A stretch of 35,157 nucleotides of DNA from the NCBI GenBank assembly GCA_028876065.1, contig JAGWTI010000030.1, forward strand, positions 1 through 35,157, given 5' to 3'. Of the stretch, positions 218 to 27,725 are shown in pieces. The position numbers were made by a program, and so were the translations under genes. The notes beneath the pieces were generated by a model that was given only the letters and a program-made list of their open reading frames with translations, had not been told where the DNA came from and ran no database searches. Position 1 is the stretch's first letter; each line of letters opens with the position of its first letter. The DNA is from Nitrospirota bacterium (GTDB lineage: Bacteria > Nitrospirota > Nitrospiria > Nitrospirales > Nitrospiraceae).

Positions 218-691
218 CACGACGGCCGTTCACTGACTCTTCGCCGGCGTTCTTCCGAGCAGGGACAGGTCACACAGCGGCCTGCCCCCGCCGCCTTCTC
301 TCTCCCTACCCTCAGCGGACGGAATGGGCAAGGAGGCTCTCGCTATTCATTCCTCACTTGCAGAATCAACTGCGAAGCCACCTCTAGCGTGAGACAAATC
401 TACAAGCGATTTGTCCACGCCAACCCCTCTCTTAAAGCGGCTGGAACGGATGGGCAGGGAGCGGACGGCCTCTGCGGGGTAAGTGATGCCTGGAGCCGAG
501 GGGTGAGAGCCGCGCCCTTCCGGTGGTCTTCCGGGCGCGGCGGAAAATAAGAACCGGCAGAGAGAGCAGTGGGAGTAGCGCCGCCATCGAGGCCGGCCGT
601 GACGGGGCCCACCGTTCGTCAGCCGCAGCGAATCTTTCTGGAGGCTTAAACCCGACCCGACGGTACTCGCCCCTCGTCAGCCGAGGCCTCT
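218..691. other. Non-coding stretch between brnT and the Rsm22-like gene
   Basis: No ORF here has recognisable protein character; the open frames are arginine-rich shadows of GC-rich DNA. Two small features are visible: a hairpin at 393-415 (8-bp arms GACAAATC and GATTTGTC, 7-nt loop) and two copies of the 10-mer TCGTCAGCCG at 616-625 and 674-683, just beyond the 3' end of the minus-strand gene. I see no tRNA, promoter or clear terminator. Confidence 0.5.
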
Positions 692-8652: not shown

Positions 8653-10214
8653 TCCCTCTCGCCACATTAAAAAGCGCCGTGCAGCGAGCGCTCCGCCTGG
8701 CGGCCCGGGCCAAGGACGTGCAGGAGGCGGAGGTCTTTGCCTCCAGCACCGGCCACTTGCTCTGCCGGCTGAACTACACCTCCGCAATCCCCTGCAACGG
8801 CGTCGAGGAGCCCAAGTCGTCCGAGGCCTTCGGCCTGGGCATCCGCGCCGTCTTTGCCGGGGCGGACGGCCCTCGCGTCGGCTTCGGCAGCGAAGCGCGG
8901 GATCTCTCTCCCGTCGGCATCAAGCGCGCGCTGGAGAAGGCCCGACAGAACGCCGTGCCGGACCCGGAATTCATCTCCTTTCCGACCCCGTCTGCGGCGC
9001 AGAGCCGCGCGCCCAAGCCGTCCGTGTCCCACGATCGGGCAATCATGGACCTCAAGGACGGCACGCTGGTGGAAGCCGGGTGGCGGGTCCTTCAGGAGGC
9101 GCTCAAGACCTTCGACTCCTCGGAGCCGCTGGCCAAACTGGCCGGATCCAAGGAAAAGCTGGCCAACCTGAGCCTCATCGTGGGCGGGGACGTCAGTCTC
9201 TTTCAGCAACGCATGGCCATCGGCTCCACCCGCATCCCCAAGGTCCAGACGGATGAGACGACATACGTCACCTCCTCCGTGACCTCCATGGTCGAACGGA
9301 AAGCCGCCAAAGGCAGCGGCTATGCAGCCGCCACCCATCTCGCCAAGTTCAAAGGCGAGGCCGGCGCCGACGCAGCCCGCAACGCGATCCTGGGCGCAGA
9401 CGGACAGCGCTTGCCCAGCGGGACCTATCAGGTCGTGCTGGGCCCCCAGCCGGTGGCGGACCTCATGACCAATCTCATCCTCCCCAGCCTGAGCGCCGAC
9501 GCCTTTTACAGCTGTAAGTCGGCGTTTCTCGGGGAAGTGGGCCGTCCCGTGGCCTCCGAACTCCTGACCATCTACGACCATGGAGCCGCCAAAGGATTCG
9601 TGGGGACCAAGCGGCTGACCTGCGAAGGCCTGCCCACCGGACGGACCGATCTGATCCAAGGCGGCGTCTTGCGGGGCTTGCTCTCCAACCACTACGAAAC
9701 GCAGCGGCTGTTGAAGGACCCGCGCGCACGGGAAAAGCTCGGCGTAAATCCGCAGGAACATCCGGACGTGTTGGCGCCCCGCAACGGCTTCCGCCTCTCC
9801 CATCAAGGGGGCAGACAGTTCGACGCGCTGCCGTCCATCGCCGCCACCAACCTGTTCATCGAAGGGTCCCAGCCCCACAGCCGGGACAGCCTGCTGGCGA
9901 CGGTCGGCGACGGGGTCTACATCGGCCGCATCTGGTACACCTATGCGATGAACGGGCTGCGGGCCGGCGATTTTACCTGCACCGTCGTCGGCGATTCCTT
10001 CTTGATCCAGGATGGACGCCTGACGGCGCCGTTGCGCGGCAACACGATTCGCCTCACCGGCAACATCCACTCCCTCCTGCGTCAGGTAATCGGCGTCACC
10101 AAACAGACCAAGCCGATCATCGGCTGGGCCGCCGACGAAGTCATCTACGCCCCCGAGATGGCCGTCCGCGGCCTCCAGCTCACCGAGATTGCCCAATTCA
10201 TGGAATCCGTGTAA
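8649..10214 (+). CDS. tldE: TldE/PmbA family protein, metal-free partner of TldD
   Basis: The 521-residue protein has the PmbA/TldE fold markers: an N-terminal domain with QEAEVFASSTGHLLCRLNY, and a C-terminal beta-rich domain with GTYQVVLGPQPVADLM, FEGxQxxxRD-like residues and FTCTVVGDSFLIQDGRL. It lacks an HExxxH motif, as expected for the non-catalytic half of the heterodimer. It starts at the ATG inside the ATGA overlap with tldD, so translational coupling and equal dosage are likely. Length is longer than E. coli PmbA (about 450), mainly from insertions in the middle domain. Cytoplasmic. Confidence 0.88.
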   Translation: MIPLATLKSAVQRALRLAARAKDVQEAEVFASSTGHLLCRLNYTSAIPCNGVEEPKSSEAFGLGIRAVFAGADGPRVGFGSEARDLSPVGIKRALEKARQNAVPDPEFISFPTPSAAQSRAPKPSVSHDRAIMDLKDGTLVEAGWRVLQEALKTFDSSEPLAKLAGSKEKLANLSLIVGGDVSLFQQRMAIGSTRIPKVQTDETTYVTSSVTSMVERKAAKGSGYAAATHLAKFKGEAGADAARNAILGADGQRLPSGTYQVVLGPQPVADLMTNLILPSLSADAFYSCKSAFLGEVGRPVASELLTIYDHGAAKGFVGTKRLTCEGLPTGRTDLIQGGVLRGLLSNHYETQRLLKDPRAREKLGVNPQEHPDVLAPRNGFRLSHQGGRQFDALPSIAATNLFIEGSQPHSRDSLLATVGDGVYIGRIWYTYAMNGLRAGDFTCTVVGDSFLIQDGRLTAPLRGNTIRLTGNIHSLLRQVIGVTKQTKPIIGWAADEVIYAPEMAVRGLQLTEIAQFMESV

Positions 10215-10982: not shown

Positions 10983-11810
10983 ATGGCGATCTACGCGATC
11001 GGCGACGTACAGGGCTGTTTTCCCGCGCTGGAGCGACTGGTCGGGCAGATCCGGTTCGATCCGGCCTGCGACCAACTTTGGTTCGTCGGCGACTTGGTGA
11101 ACCGGGGACCCGATTCGCTCTCGGTCCTGCGCTACATCAAAGGGCTCGGGCCGGCGGCGATTACGGTGCTGGGCAATCACGATCTGCACCTGCTGGCCAT
11201 CGCCGCCGGCGTGACCAAGCTGGGCCGCAAAGACACGGTCCAAGATGTGTTGCAGGCGCCGGATCGAGACGAACTGATCGCGTGGCTCCGCCGCCAGCCC
11301 CTCGTCCACGTCGCCGACGGCCACATGCTGCTGCATGCAGGACTCCTCCCCCAATGGACCGTCGCCCAAACACAGGACCTCGCGCGGGAAGTGGAAGCCG
11401 TACTCCGCTCCCCTCGCTATCCCGAATTGCTGAGTTATCTGTATGAAGTCGGCTACAGGGAGAACAGCGGACCTCGCCGCTGGACCGACAGCCTGTCCGG
11501 CCGCGAACGACTGGGCGTCATTGCCAATGCCTTGACCAAACTGCGCGTCTGTTCCACGGAAGGAGAGATGGGGCTCTCGTACAAAGGCGCCCCGCACGCC
11601 GCGCCGCCGGGATTCATCCCCTGGTTTCATGCGCCCAACCGAAGAAGCGCCGAGACCACCGTGGTCTGCGGCCATTGGGCCGCCCTGGGCCTGCACATCC
11701 TAGACAACCTGCTCGTCCTGGACAGCGGCTATGTCTGGGGACAGCAGTTGACGGCAGTCCGGCTCGAAGATCGGCAAGTCTTTCAGGTTTCCAATCGAGA
11801 GCCGGCGTGA
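10983..11810 (+). CDS. apaH: Bis(5'-nucleosyl)-tetraphosphatase, symmetrical
   Basis: The 275-residue protein has the full phosphoesterase signature: GDVQGC (near 7-12), GDLVNRGPDSL, GNHDLHLLA and LLHAG, plus CGHWAALG near the C-terminus. ApaH hydrolyses Ap4A to two ADP and can remove Np4 caps from RNA. Length equals that of E. coli ApaH (280). It follows queF by 67 nt and overlaps the DUF309 gene by 4 nt (GTGA). A TACAAT lies only 7 nt before the ATG, but no matching -35 is seen. No strong SD is present. Confidence 0.94.
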   Translation: MAIYAIGDVQGCFPALERLVGQIRFDPACDQLWFVGDLVNRGPDSLSVLRYIKGLGPAAITVLGNHDLHLLAIAAGVTKLGRKDTVQDVLQAPDRDELIAWLRRQPLVHVADGHMLLHAGLLPQWTVAQTQDLAREVEAVLRSPRYPELLSYLYEVGYRENSGPRRWTDSLSGRERLGVIANALTKLRVCSTEGEMGLSYKGAPHAAPPGFIPWFHAPNRRSAETTVVCGHWAALGLHILDNLLVLDSGYVWGQQLTAVRLEDRQVFQVSNREPA

Positions 11811-12328
11811 CCGAGCCTCAAGCATCGGACCCTGCCCGGCCCCGCTATACGGCCACCCCGTTTCCGCCCTACCGATTCGTGCCCGGCCGATATCCGCATC
11901 CGCGGCGCAACCCTCTCGGCCATTCCTATGGACGACCGGAACCGCAACTCGAGCCGTTTTCACCAGAAGCCTGGCCACAAGCCGAGGGGTACCTCTATGG
12001 CATCGACTTGTACAACTATGCCTACTGGTGGGAATGTCACGAAGTCTTCGAAAGCTTCTGGCATGCAGTCGGGCACAAGACCGAGCAAGGCAACTTCTTC
12101 CAGGCGCTGATTCAGCTTGCCGCGGCCAACCTGAAACACGTTGTCGGCGACATCCAGGCGGCCGACAATCTGACGAGACGAGGATTGGTCCGACTCGATA
12201 CCGTACCGGATTTCTATATGGGAGTGGATGTCAGGGGCTTGAGTGAGGAGATCCGCCGACATGGCATTGGCCCGGCCAAGCGGCCGGTCCTGATCCGATT
12301 GACCAATCCCATCAATCCGTTGGAATGA
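11807..12328 (+). CDS. DUF309 domain protein
   Basis: The GTG in the GTGA overlap with apaH gives a 173-residue protein. Residues 1-60 are proline- and arginine-rich and probably extended. The DUF309 core follows: LYNYAYWWECHEVFESFWHA (about 65-84), QGNFFQALIQLAAANLKHVVG, and a region ending RRHGIGPAKRP. The conserved W-E-x-HE-x-x-E-x-x-W motif is typical of this small helical family, whose biochemical role is unknown. A start further upstream is possible but would lie entirely within apaH. Translational coupling to apaH is likely. Confidence 0.82.
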   Translation: MTEPQASDPARPRYTATPFPPYRFVPGRYPHPRRNPLGHSYGRPEPQLEPFSPEAWPQAEGYLYGIDLYNYAYWWECHEVFESFWHAVGHKTEQGNFFQALIQLAAANLKHVVGDIQAADNLTRRGLVRLDTVPDFYMGVDVRGLSEEIRRHGIGPAKRPVLIRLTNPINPLE

Positions 12329-12594
12329 ACTGACCGGCGGATAGGGCAAGGCACGCGCGTCCGCGCCTTCCGAAGCGGCCCAATCACGACCGCGGCTGAC
12401 GAAGGGCGGACAGCTCCGGCGTCGGCCTGATGCGTTGAGGACCATCCCGCTCCTGATGTCCTCCTGTTGGCCGGTCGCCTTATCGGATCAGCAGAACGGC
12501 GCCCGGCACCCTCGTTGCCATGAAGTGTTCCTCTCCCGCCAGGCCTCACGCCTCCCTGCCCATCCCTTCCAGCCGCGGCTATAGAAAAACTGGG
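12329..12594. other. Non-coding stretch after the DUF309 gene
   Basis: No ORF with protein character, no tRNA and no clear promoter. One copy of the 10-mer CGGCTGACGA (12393-12402) matches, in reverse complement, the pair downstream of the Rsm22-like gene. The stretch runs to the palindrome at 12595. Confidence 0.45.
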
Positions 12595-12627
12595 CAGGGG
12601 ACAGGCCGCTTACAAGCCTGTCCCCTG
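12595..12627 (-). repeat. Palindromic repeat copy 1, also a candidate terminator for the pentapeptide gene
   Basis: On the minus strand a perfect 12-bp stem (CAGGGGACAGGC with GCCTGTCCCCTG) encloses the 9-nt loop TTGTAAGCG, and CCCAGTTTTTCT follows. It lies 28 nt past the pentapeptide gene stop and has the form of a rho-independent terminator. The core and loop are closely related to the element at 13954-13984, in the opposite orientation. Confidence 0.75.
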
Positions 12628-12655
12628 TTGTATTTGTTGAAATACGCGGCCGACA

Positions 12656-13906
12656 TTACCGCCGGAATCGGCGACGGAGGGCGAGAAGAAAGAGCGCCAC
12701 TTGGGCAGGAATCAGGACCCGTTCAAAAATTTCAAGAAACCACGCAGCACCACTTCCCGCAATCGCATGGGTCTCACTTTTGAACGTCGCCACCTCAACC
12801 GCATGGATCAGACCAATAGGCTCCAGAACAGTTTGGCCAAGCCTCGGTGTCAATCCCACAAACGAATAGAGCAGTCCGAATGCCACCACCAGAAGCGCCA
12901 GCACCAGCAAAGCTCGCAAATAGCTGCTCCCATAGTTGCTTGCCACACGGTAGAGGTTGACCGCCAAGCGAACAAATGCTGGCTGAGCCGGATCAAGCCG
13001 CTTCATTTCCATTGCGCCGATCACGCAATCTTCAGATAAGTCGTACTGCTTGGCTTCATCAAAATTGATGATGAACCGACGGTAAGCCGCTGCCACCTGC
13101 TCGTAGCTTGCGGCCTCTTCATCATTGGCCAAACGGTCTAGTTCATCCTGCAGGACCATCCGGCCCTTTTCCCTGTGCCAGTCCACATCTTCAAAGAGCA
13201 CACCTTTAATGGGACAGCCGACAAACCTCCCTCGGAAACCCTGCCGGCTCTTTTCATTGACCCGGAGAAAACACACTTTTTCGGGCTTCATGAGCCTGAC
13301 GCTATGAAAACTCGCGATGGCCGGTTCGCCACCCGCTTCCCTCGCCAAGTCATCTTTCCCATACCCCCAGAGAGTCAACGTAAAGTCGGCCCCTTCAGTG
13401 AACATTGCCCCCCAGAAGTCGGCCCCTTCGGTGAATGTTGCTAGCCCAAAGTCGACCTCTTCAGTGAACGTCGCCTGCCGGAAGTTGGCTCTCTGGGTGA
13501 ACGTCGCCGCCCAGAAGTTGGCCGCCTGGGCAAATGTTGCCTCCCCGAAGTCGGCCCCCTTGGTGAATATCGCCCCCTGGAAGATTGCTTCCCCAATGAA
13601 CCTTGCATCACCAAAGAAGGCCTTCTCAGTGAATAGCTCTGCTCCAAAGTTGGCCTCATGAAAGACGAAGTAGCGAAAATCAAAGTGGTCCTTCGGACGG
13701 TGAAAGACCGAGGTCCGAAGAAGGATAGCATCAATTTCAGCACGGAATGCCTCCGCATCCTTACGTTGCTCGCGAGAGTGCATCAGGCAGACCGGCCTCT
13801 CATCCACGTCTGACGGCGCTGGGTGAATGGGCCGCCCACAAGGCCGCCCATCAGACATCACGACCGGACAGTCGGTCGGCTCAGACTGTTGTTCAAGTTC
13901 ACCCAT
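12656..13906 (-). CDS. Pentapeptide-repeat membrane protein with N-terminal Cys/His motif
   Basis: From the ATG at 13904-13906 the protein has 416 residues; an in-frame GTG at 13936 would add ten. Residues 13-43 contain C13, C23, H28, C40 and H43, a probable zinc site seen in some pentapeptide proteins. About residues 85-175 form pentapeptide repeats of the A(D/N)F-xx type, roughly 18 units (ANFGAELF, ADFGEATF, ANFRQATF, VDFGLATF), which should fold as a right-handed quadrilateral beta-helix. A helical region follows, then two membrane segments near 330-351 and 388-410 with a basic RRRFRR end. The DNA is visibly less GC-rich than its neighbours and the gene is bracketed by inverted copies of one palindrome, suggesting acquisition. 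Function is unknown; gyrase-mimic, stress and scaffold roles exist in the superfamily. Confidence 0.8.
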   Translation of the reverse strand: MGELEQQSEPTDCPVVMSDGRPCGRPIHPAPSDVDERPVCLMHSREQRKDAEAFRAEIDAILLRTSVFHRPKDHFDFRYFVFHEANFGAELFTEKAFFGDARFIGEAIFQGAIFTKGADFGEATFAQAANFWAATFTQRANFRQATFTEEVDFGLATFTEGADFWGAMFTEGADFTLTLWGYGKDDLAREAGGEPAIASFHSVRLMKPEKVCFLRVNEKSRQGFRGRFVGCPIKGVLFEDVDWHREKGRMVLQDELDRLANDEEAASYEQVAAAYRRFIINFDEAKQYDLSEDCVIGAMEMKRLDPAQPAFVRLAVNLYRVASNYGSSYLRALLVLALLVVAFGLLYSFVGLTPRLGQTVLEPIGLIHAVEVATFKSETHAIAGSGAAWFLEIFERVLIPAQVALFLLALRRRFRR

Positions 13907-13953
13907 GGCCGAGGAGTCTACTGACAAGTCGCACACATGGCAAGTTGGCCTTA

Positions 13954-13984
13954 CGGGGACAGGTTTTCAAGCGACCTGTCCCCG
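13954..13984 (+). repeat. Palindromic repeat copy 2
   Basis: An 11-bp stem (CGGGGACAGGT with ACCTGTCCCCG) encloses the 9-nt loop TTTCAAGCG, and TTTTTCT follows ten bases further on. It is the same family as 12595-12627: the stems differ mainly at the closing pairs and the loops match at 7 of 9 positions. Orientation is opposite, so the two copies point outward from the pentapeptide gene. Confidence 0.75.
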
Positions 13985-14250
13985 TTCACTTCACTTTTTC
14001 TCGCGCTGGGATGGACGGGATGGACGCGGAGGAGAGCTGCCTCTGCGGGGAGCATGGAGACCATCAGCCATCAAGTAAGAGCAGCGCCGTTCTGATCATC
14101 CGATGAGGCGCTGCGTCGCTGGCACAGGCCTGGGAAAAGCAGAGAGGAGAACGCCGCATCGAGGCGGCCGACGGAGTGTCCGCCCGTCACCAGCCCAGGC
14201 TGATTCAACTCGTCGTTAGCCGAGGCTCCTCCTGTTCGAAGGTGCTCTAT
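13985..14250. other. Non-coding stretch between the palindrome and the DUF2238 genes
   Basis: I see no gene, tRNA or convincing terminator here. Short frames lack protein character. The region lies downstream of the DUF2238 pair and upstream of the pentapeptide gene, so the promoter of the latter should lie between 13907 and about 14050, but no good -35/-10 pair was found. Confidence 0.4.
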
Positions 14251-14904
14251 TTAGATGCCAAGCTTGAACTGCGACTGGCTCAGACGGTGCAGGATAGCTG
14301 TCACGGCCATGCAGAGGATCGCGCCGCAGAGAGCGACGGTCATGTCCTGCTGCGCATCCCAGATATCCCCCTGGGTTCCCAGATAAGCATGGCCCAGTTC
14401 GGGGCTGACGATCTGGGCGACCCAGGATTCGATGATCTCAAACAGTCCGCTCATGGCCAGCAGCACCGCGGCAGGAAGGACATAACTCCAGAGTCCGGTG
14501 AGCGGGACGGTCCGGACCAGGAACTCGCGGAGGGGATAGGTCATCAGCAACCCGAACGCGAAGTGCGCGACCCGGTCGAAATGATTGCGCTCCAACGCCA
14601 TGGCGTCTTTCAACAACGAGCCGGCCGGCACTTCCGAATAGGTATAGTGGGCGGCAACCGTGTGCAGCGTCAGAAAGACGGTCATGAGCCCATAGGACAG
14701 GAGGGAGAAGGGAAACCGTCGATAGGTGACCGCCAAGACCGCAACCAGCGCCACGGACAGGATGTTTTCCAGGAACCAATCTCGCCGGTCCAGGGGCGAG
14801 ATGGCCATCACCGCCCAGAGCAACAGGTACCAGCCCAGCAACGCCGCGAGCAGACGGGTATGGCGCACGTCTCCCGTGCCCTGCCTCGTCGGCCAAGCGG
14901 TCAT
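14251..14904 (-). CDS. DUF2238 (YjdF-type) integral membrane protein, copy 2
   Basis: A 217-residue protein with about six hydrophobic segments. The family core is present: HTVAAHYTYSEVPAGSLL, NHFDRVAHFAFGLLMTYPLREF, then SGLFEIIESWVAQIVSPELG and YLGTQGDIWDAQQDMTVALCG. The conserved E, H and D residues at membrane edges are typical of this family, whose function is unknown. It lies 3 nt downstream of a second member with which it shares about half of its residues by eye, so the pair is a tandem duplication. No clear SD precedes the ATG, so it is probably translated by coupling. Confidence 0.85.
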   Translation of the reverse strand: MTAWPTRQGTGDVRHTRLLAALLGWYLLLWAVMAISPLDRRDWFLENILSVALVAVLAVTYRRFPFSLLSYGLMTVFLTLHTVAAHYTYSEVPAGSLLKDAMALERNHFDRVAHFAFGLLMTYPLREFLVRTVPLTGLWSYVLPAAVLLAMSGLFEIIESWVAQIVSPELGHAYLGTQGDIWDAQQDMTVALCGAILCMAVTAILHRLSQSQFKLGI

Positions 14905-27304: not shown

Positions 27305-27540
27305 GCAGGATGGTCAAACAGGCTACCTTCTCACCCGCCCACCCCGCGTGCGTTAAACGCACGCTGTTCCCGTGGCTCGGCCGCAGCGATCAAAGAGGCG
27401 ACGAGGTACATACCAAGCTTCGCTTGAACCGCTCGCTTCGATCACATGCGAGCGGAGAAGTATTTGGCCTCCAGTGCTGCCGTACGTGGAGCCTCCGAGC
27501 GACGCGAGAACAAAGCTGGCGGCCTGTTGCACCATCCTGC
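27305..27540. mobile_element. 236-bp non-coding element with terminal inverted repeats (MITE-like)
   Basis: The ends 27305-27327 and 27540-27518 (inverted) match at 19 of 23 positions; both begin GCAGGATGGT and continue with AACAGGC. Inside are a perfect 19-nt palindrome (27346-27364, GCGTGCGTT and AACGCACGC) and an 8-bp stem CCGCTCGC/GCGAGCGG (27429-27436 with 27448-27455). The right end coincides with the last base of the rpmF stop codon. There is no ORF of its own and no obvious target-site duplication. It resembles intergenic repeats I associate with Nitrospira, from memory only. Confidence 0.55.
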
Positions 27541-27725
27541 TAGGATTCTTCGACGGCGATGACCGCGTTGCCTTTGTAGGTCCCGCAGTTGAGGCAGGTA
27601 TAGTGTGGGCGCTTGGGCTCATGACACTGCGGGCACACGGACAAGCCCGGAGGCGTAATTTTGGACTTGCTCGTCCGGCGCTTATCCCGCCTGGCTCTGG
27701 ATAGCTTATGTTTGGGATTTGGCAT
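27540..27725 (-). CDS. rpmF: 50S ribosomal protein L32
   Basis: A 61-residue basic protein beginning MPNPKHKLSRARRDKRRT, the L32 N-terminus. Cysteines C31, C34, C44 and C47 (CPQC and CLNC) make this the zinc-ribbon form. It lies 32 nt after yceD, the classic pair. Its TAG stop is shared with the tip of the repeat element downstream. Confidence 0.96.
   Translation of the reverse strand: MPNPKHKLSRARRDKRRTSKSKITPPGLSVCPQCHEPKRPHYTCLNCGTYKGNAVIAVEES

Follow-up and report, generated by a model that had tools for sequence, protein, structure and literature searches.

Introduction

The attC sites of integrons carry RYYYAAC and GTTRRRY core sites at their ends. For RAYTs, PMC2817692 and PMC6006769 describe REPs with a GT[AG]G foot on either side of the gene and a correlation with REP numbers. 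In the account given in PMC2229807, ERIC elements are imperfect palindromes of 127 bp with 7-bp terminal inverted repeats, target duplications and TA ends. The SPRITE elements of pneumococcus are presented in PMC3049150 as terminator-like hairpins enriched between convergent genes, with no mobiliser known from that source.

We have followed up a first-pass annotation of a 35,157-nucleotide stretch of DNA (the window; contig JAGWTI010000030.1 of assembly GCA_028876065.1) from a Nitrospirota bacterium, in which a low-GC pentapeptide-repeat gene lying between two palindromes was interpreted as a possible cassette that moves as one unit. The two palindromes turn out to form an end of a larger structured repeat of ∼250 nt. 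No account of this repeat in Nitrospira turned up in the literature searched and, as far as these searches go, the repeat looks previously undescribed. Among the structured interspersed repeats of bacteria, the best reading is that its behaviour is closest to that of ERIC or SPRITE elements. Like the ERIC (IRU) elements of enterobacteria as characterised in PMC2229807, it is interspersed and non-coding, forms a long imperfect hairpin, lies in transcribed intergenic DNA and has an orientation to the gene that matters. Unlike ERIC, it is ∼250 nt long and GC-rich (63.7%), lacks a terminal inverted repeat and possesses a separate end hairpin, where cargo begins. The terminator-like hairpin and enrichment between convergent genes are shared with SPRITE, but in the Nitrospiraceae repeat the terminator-like end is preceded by a conserved imperfect hairpin of 200 nt, orientation with respect to the upstream gene is fixed, and accessory genes border the element.

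Results

Structure of the window locus

Both palindromes on which the cassette proposal was built are present. The stems, at 12595-12627 and 13954-13984, contain the GGGGACAGG core, the 9-nt loops CGCTTACAA and CGCTTGAAA, read on opposite strands, are equal at seven of nine positions, and TTTTTCT is found on the outer side of each palindrome. The window contains five occurrences of GGGGACAGG versus 0.5 expected, four of which constitute the stems of the two palindromes. The description is nevertheless incomplete, as each palindrome represents the last ∼30 nt of a ∼250-nt repeat copy. They are identified as one end of a larger repeat because inverted similarity spans ∼240 nt on each side, 12382-12625 corresponding to the reverse strand of ∼13955-14206 in a flank alignment. 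The features of the window are listed below, where G000 denotes the window's own genome and G003, together with G001 and G002, a sister species of the same genus.

388..640, - strand: third, weaker repeat copy, 86.5 bits, 51 nt past the stop of a co-oriented Rsm22-like gene
11675..12328, + strand: native DUF309 gene, stop codon 49 nt before the left copy
12378..12626, + strand: full-length left copy of the ∼250-nt structured repeat (241 bits), which follows the DUF309 gene in the same orientation
12595..12627, + strand: terminal hairpin of the left copy, with the predicted form of an intrinsic terminator for the pentapeptide gene when read on the - strand
12656..13936, - strand: pentapeptide-repeat gene (Pentapeptide_3, PF13576), 426 aa, low GC, in G000 and G003 only of 41 genomes
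13954..13984, - strand: terminal hairpin of the right copy, palindrome stem
13954..14211, - strand: full-length right copy of the repeat (167 bits), which follows the DUF2238 gene in the same orientation
14251..14904, - strand: native DUF2238 gene, stop codon 39 nt before the right copy

The DUF309 and DUF2238 genes are convergent and therefore their repeats and hairpins face each other across the inserted gene. The bracketed-cassette appearance of the accessory gene between the two facing repeats is explained by this convergence and needs no other cause. The distinct base composition ascribed to the gene is real but modest, 55.6% GC compared with 62.8% over the whole window and 59.6-63.8% in those neighbouring genes that were measured. 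Terminator calling agrees with the suggestion that one end doubles as the terminator of the gene, the left hairpin having the predicted form for termination of the pentapeptide transcript; the region as a whole yields two terminator calls versus 4.2 in its shuffles.

Distribution of the pentapeptide gene

Comparison with relatives supports the conclusion that the pentapeptide gene is accessory. Clear homologues of the protein (E ≤ 1e-10) were detected in two of the 41 genomes searched, G000 and G003, at the same locus in both, rather than in the same place in all relatives; G003 also encodes a 27%-identical paralogue. The site exists in an empty state, as anticipated by the first-pass annotation, in G001 and G002, which lack both the pentapeptide gene and the repeats. 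In G001, ∼25 nt resembling the 5' arm of the repeat remain, adjoining panB, and the G003 locus consists of a 47%-identical pentapeptide gene and a single repeat, located on the panB side. At the DNA level, the pentapeptide genes at 12656-13936 of the window and 1971-3407 of L155 are 81% alike over the last ∼395 nt and much less so towards the start, a pattern resembling an exchange of the 5' part.

Size and distribution of the repeat family

With the region as query, 30 matches were obtained in the genome at E ≤ 0.001, self included, mostly to the left-copy segment. Fourteen copies were aligned, folded and built into a covariance model (250 positions, 48 pairs), which matched 53 places in the same genome at E ≤ 0.1, 29 copies scoring >60 bits. 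The exact palindrome core occurs six times. Palindromes of this family are thus scattered through the genome and mostly tied to a preceding native gene, which is one of the two outcomes that the first-pass annotation named as speaking against the cassette; the other, conservation of the pentapeptide gene in place in all relatives, was not observed. Among 41 genomes (the window's own and 40 relatives), 23 match the model at E ≤ 0.001, the number of matches being 32 in G007, 31 in G003, 30 in G001, 25 in G016, 21 in each of G014 and G023, 19 in G022, 14 in G015, 13 in G018 and 12 in G002; no matches were obtained at this threshold in G005, G012, G013 and G017, which belong to the same family. 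Across the phylum, 22 of 148 genomes match at E ≤ 1e-10, all within the same family. A degenerate 25-base core pattern recovered 30 contigs from GTDB genomes, all titled Nitrospira, Nitrospiraceae or Nitrospirae, and had no match in IMG/VR. The repeat family was found only in Nitrospiraceae. Part of the window and five loci gave no match in Rfam at the gathering score.

Other repeats were also encountered. Another intergenic dispersed repeat of ∼150-250 nt in these same genomes, with copies ∼80-88% alike, is located at 27305-27542 of the window, L197 7475-7719, L181 4343-4497 and L182 8365-8525. A second structured type occurs at L137 3323-3485, L163 7002-7144, L160 5076-5260, L177 7024-7192, L178 5931-6072 and L199 2552-2703; in L177 it has the terminal hairpin and 5' arm in common with the main family and a different middle. 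A 220-nt repeat is present at L143 1433-1635, L201 5806-6030, L188 4449-4665 and L166 9440-9655, adjoining the foot of a terminal hairpin at two of these four sites.

Conservation of the fold

The repeat is composed of a long imperfect hairpin (200 nt) and a separate terminal hairpin, both of which are maintained through paired changes. In 88 full copies, 90.8% of cells are paired and 40 of the 48 pairs exhibit double changes, with a covariation of 0.356 versus 0.111 when shuffled and ≤0.067 when slid. The 4010 cells comprise 3558 Watson-Crick, 83 G-T, 139 A-C and 230 other combinations. Wobble pairs are thus rare on both strands and rarer on the strand of the upstream gene than on the opposite strand, a paucity which leans towards constraint at the DNA level and is suggestive, not decisive. 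Folded as DNA, the left window copy performs better than all of its shuffles (z -4.04); the fold of the right copy is not significantly better than its shuffles (z -1.24).

Position relative to genes

Repeat orientation mostly corresponds with that of the preceding gene. Copies point in the same direction as a called 5' neighbour in 74 of 89 cases and do not in 15, giving p = 1.5e-10 on the assumption of independent copies, which orthologous loci are not; one further copy, outside the 89, has no called 5' neighbour. In G000 alone, 23 of 27 copies are co-oriented with the 5' neighbour (p = 3e-4). Fifty-six of the 74 co-oriented copies begin ≤100 nt past the stop codon, with a median of 39 nt, and 3' neighbours are unbiased (39 same, 37 opposite). 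These positions derive from a simple codon-based caller which misses foreign genes, the pentapeptide gene included. The best reading is that each copy is tied to the native gene preceding it, in whose direction it is read.

A terminal stem of at least 8 pairs is present in 70 of 109 mapped copies, short copies included, and absent from the other 39. The T-rich tract after these hairpins lies on the strand opposite to the upstream gene in 59 of 70 copies and on the same strand in 10 of 70; shuffled flanks produce an opposite-strand tract in 39 of 70, so that composition accounts for part of this pattern. In L199, L165, L201, L197, L198 and L149, a further 30-40 nt past the hairpin are conserved (AACGCTTCGCCACGTTCAGTGGG...). 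Since such a conserved segment follows some hairpins, not every subtype ends at the hairpin foot, and in some the element may extend beyond the hairpin. A common C-terminus of cargo proteins was considered and dropped, the recurring flanking letters being the conserved repeat flank.

Turnover between species and the hairpin-foot border

Copies have been gained, lost or rendered mosaic among sister species. Thirteen of 19 listed G000 repeat sites were each compared in two sister species, and of these 26 comparisons five align through the hairpin, ten are partial or mosaic and eleven lack an alignable repeat. The L142 site is clean and empty in G003, where homology resumes 16 nt past the stop codon; G000 contains 262 nt at this position. 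Upstream proteins are 95-98% identical at several sites at which the repeats differ strongly between species, for example 97.6% versus 71% for the repeats at L136/L179 and 95.7% versus 69% at L148/L169. Elsewhere, the best repeat match is the orthologous site, as for L148/L183 (96%). The repeat therefore resembles MITE or ERIC-like elements in being multicopy, non-coding, intergenic, strongly structured and present or absent at orthologous sites. It departs from them in that terminal inverted repeats are absent (3.6 of 12 matching versus 3.2 at random) and no target-site duplication is visible at L142, the single clean empty site, where it was checked.

Five orthologous pairs carry the same hairpin-bearing repeat: L148/L183, L146/L166, L180/L164, L135/L162 and L135/L177. 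In all five, homology extends from the upstream gene through the repeat and breaks off at the 3' foot of the terminal hairpin, or a few nt from it, and the genes found past this point are different. Conversely, in L151/L173, the sole compared pair without a hairpin, homology continues into the downstream native genes. The same pattern is seen across four genomes at a convergent hot spot that lies between genes for an MlaD-domain protein and a thiamine-binding protein: G000 contains repeat, BrnTA, repeat, small gene and repeat in succession, G001 a 264-aa gene, G003 no called gene and G014 again a BrnT gene. Tandem arrays are present at L135 (native gene, repeat, BrnTA, repeat, small gene, repeat) and L190 (repeat, two small genes, repeat).

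Cargo identified by Pfam and PADLOC includes the pentapeptide protein, BrnT, DUF433, DUF429 and DUF3800, most others matching nothing. PADLOC analysis of ten proteins provided one strong match, a DUF4145 cargo protein to the PD-T7-4 defence model (243.6 bits), and one weak SIR2-like protein. NCBIfam gave no name to nine cargo proteins or to the G003 pentapeptide protein.

The copy behind uvrA

In 19 low-copy genomes, 24 matches were detected, one to three copies in each, 20 of which were fetched. For ten of these 20, the upstream gene clusters with the gene preceding a copy in G000, G001, G003, G014 and G023. NCBIfam identifies this gene as the DNA-repair gene uvrA, with scores well over the cut-off in both genomes tested, G000 and G014, and at L286 the upstream gene ends, by eye, in a UvrA-like C-terminus. 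Two other fetched matches follow a glutaredoxin gene and the remainder lie behind other or uncertain genes. In 18 copies, 16 of them behind uvrA, 32 of 48 pairs exhibit double changes and covariation is 0.371 versus ≤0.099 when slid, values obtained in an alignment which was fitted to the covariance model; the uvrA copies of low-copy genera score 48-85 bits. The simplest reading of these sequences is that the uvrA 3' copy, common to at least five genera, represents a shared old site.

Candidate mobilising enzymes

A search for a recurrent transposase or recombinase among 1083 ORFs of ≥70 aa located near the hairpins (≤2.5 kb beyond) yielded two annotated clusters recurring at non-orthologous loci, BrnT and DUF433, the others corresponding to repeat products, native paralogues or unannotated ORFs.

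The proposal that a Y1 (RAYT) transposase moves REP-type palindromes, and that the pentapeptide gene travels with its two palindromes as a complete cassette, draws on a likeness to REP/BIME elements associated with RAYT (TnpA-REP), since the repeats are palindromic, intergenic and multicopy, and palindromes flank genes in inverted orientation. The hairpins indeed face the pentapeptide gene from both sides, and two sister species possess the empty site. Two Y1 matches were obtained in G000, where the fragment C156:2-136 runs straight into a partial repeat, and an IS200-like gene lies ∼220 nt beyond a repeat in G014. However, no PF01797 match was obtained in G001, G002, G003, G007 and G023, each of which contains 12-32 repeats, GT[AG]G is present at the 5' foot of 16 of 70 hairpins (stems ≥8 pairs), and no GGGGACAGG-type palindromes were found around the 23 Y1 genes examined. 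In addition, G000 copies <5 kb apart are convergent in three cases and tandem in three, and a DNA-level comparison of non-orthologous loci revealed no shared cargo gene, only repeats and native paralogues.

Two observations concern enzyme fragments. At L028 1-400 (C156, a contig end), the partial repeat at the 3' end of the Y1 fragment is without the first 25 model positions. On contig C48 of G018, three fragments resembling the C-terminal 60 residues of an integron integrase occur at 9638, 11467 and 13297, a spacing of ∼1830 nt.

Discussion

Overall, we consider it probable that the repeat is a structured gene-end element, similar to ERIC and SPRITE, which is positioned behind stop codons and whose hairpin borders a region of accessory-gene turnover. 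It would spread as a non-autonomous gene-end element of this type; we infer spread by transposition from presence and absence alone, because a mobilising enzyme and a target-site duplication were not found. The purine-tract-plus-hairpin end would terminate transcripts arriving from the far side and would thereby insulate the native gene. The hairpin foot may provide a preferred junction for insertion and loss of accessory genes, including the BrnTA toxin-antitoxin module, the PD-T7-4-like defence gene and the pentapeptide gene. The uvrA copy, shared by at least five genera, could plausibly be an old source from which the dispersed family arose, a suggestion we offer as a guess.

An alternative, which we regard as possible but doubtful, is that the repeat functions as a 3'-UTR RNA in mRNA stability or regulation, being ancestral at uvrA and duplicated behind other genes, with the accessory genes incidental. 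Conservation and covariation of the uvrA copy across at least five genera and the co-orientation with the upstream gene are consistent with this role, as is the report in PMC2229807 that ERIC affects upstream mRNA stability in one orientation. A selected RNA fits less well with paired changes that are nearly all double, with wobbles that are rare and rarest on the strand of the upstream gene, with the lack of an Rfam match and with presence/absence turnover at most sites.

It is unlikely that the repeats form a dispersed gene-capture platform of Nitrospiraceae, in which folded single-strand sites behind native genes, derived from the uvrA copy, would allow a recombinase to swap accessory genes (toxin-antitoxin, phage-defence) at the hairpin foot. 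We judge quite improbable an integron-like platform, with the repeats as attC-like folded single-strand sites at gene ends into which a recombinase inserts accessory-gene cassettes. The resemblance to attC lies in conservation of fold over sequence, in a position behind and co-oriented with a gene and in the accessory genes and toxin-antitoxin module nearby; the few G-T pairs, the tandem arrays at L135 and L190 and the junctions at the hairpin foot also conform. Unlike attC, however, none of the 88 copies contains both core motifs, IntI is not required, and the sites are dispersed behind ordinary native genes, not assembled in one array. IntI (TIGR02249) exceeds the NCBIfam cut-off in two of 41 genomes, G015 and G032, the latter without repeats. 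Many cargo genes have no repeat of their own and no relocated cassette was seen. An integron origin was rejected on the basis of the core motifs and IntI.

The RAYT cassette of the first-pass annotation is very improbable and is largely refuted because high-copy genomes without Y1 genes exist, so that only activity in the past could save it. In addition, the REP foot is mostly missing and no gene was seen to have moved together with its repeats.

The hosts are nitrite-oxidising relatives of Nitrospira, in which a gene-end repeat of the ERIC/SPRITE type is found behind the stop codons of many genes. With its strongly conserved fold and its location beside turnover of accessory and defence genes, the repeat is a marker for insertion hot spots in nitrifiers. 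The shared uvrA copy would be an unusual case of an interspersed repeat with a possible source that can be specified and put to the test. Should the hairpin foot prove to be an active junction, it would represent a route of gene capture which involves neither an integron nor a tRNA site.
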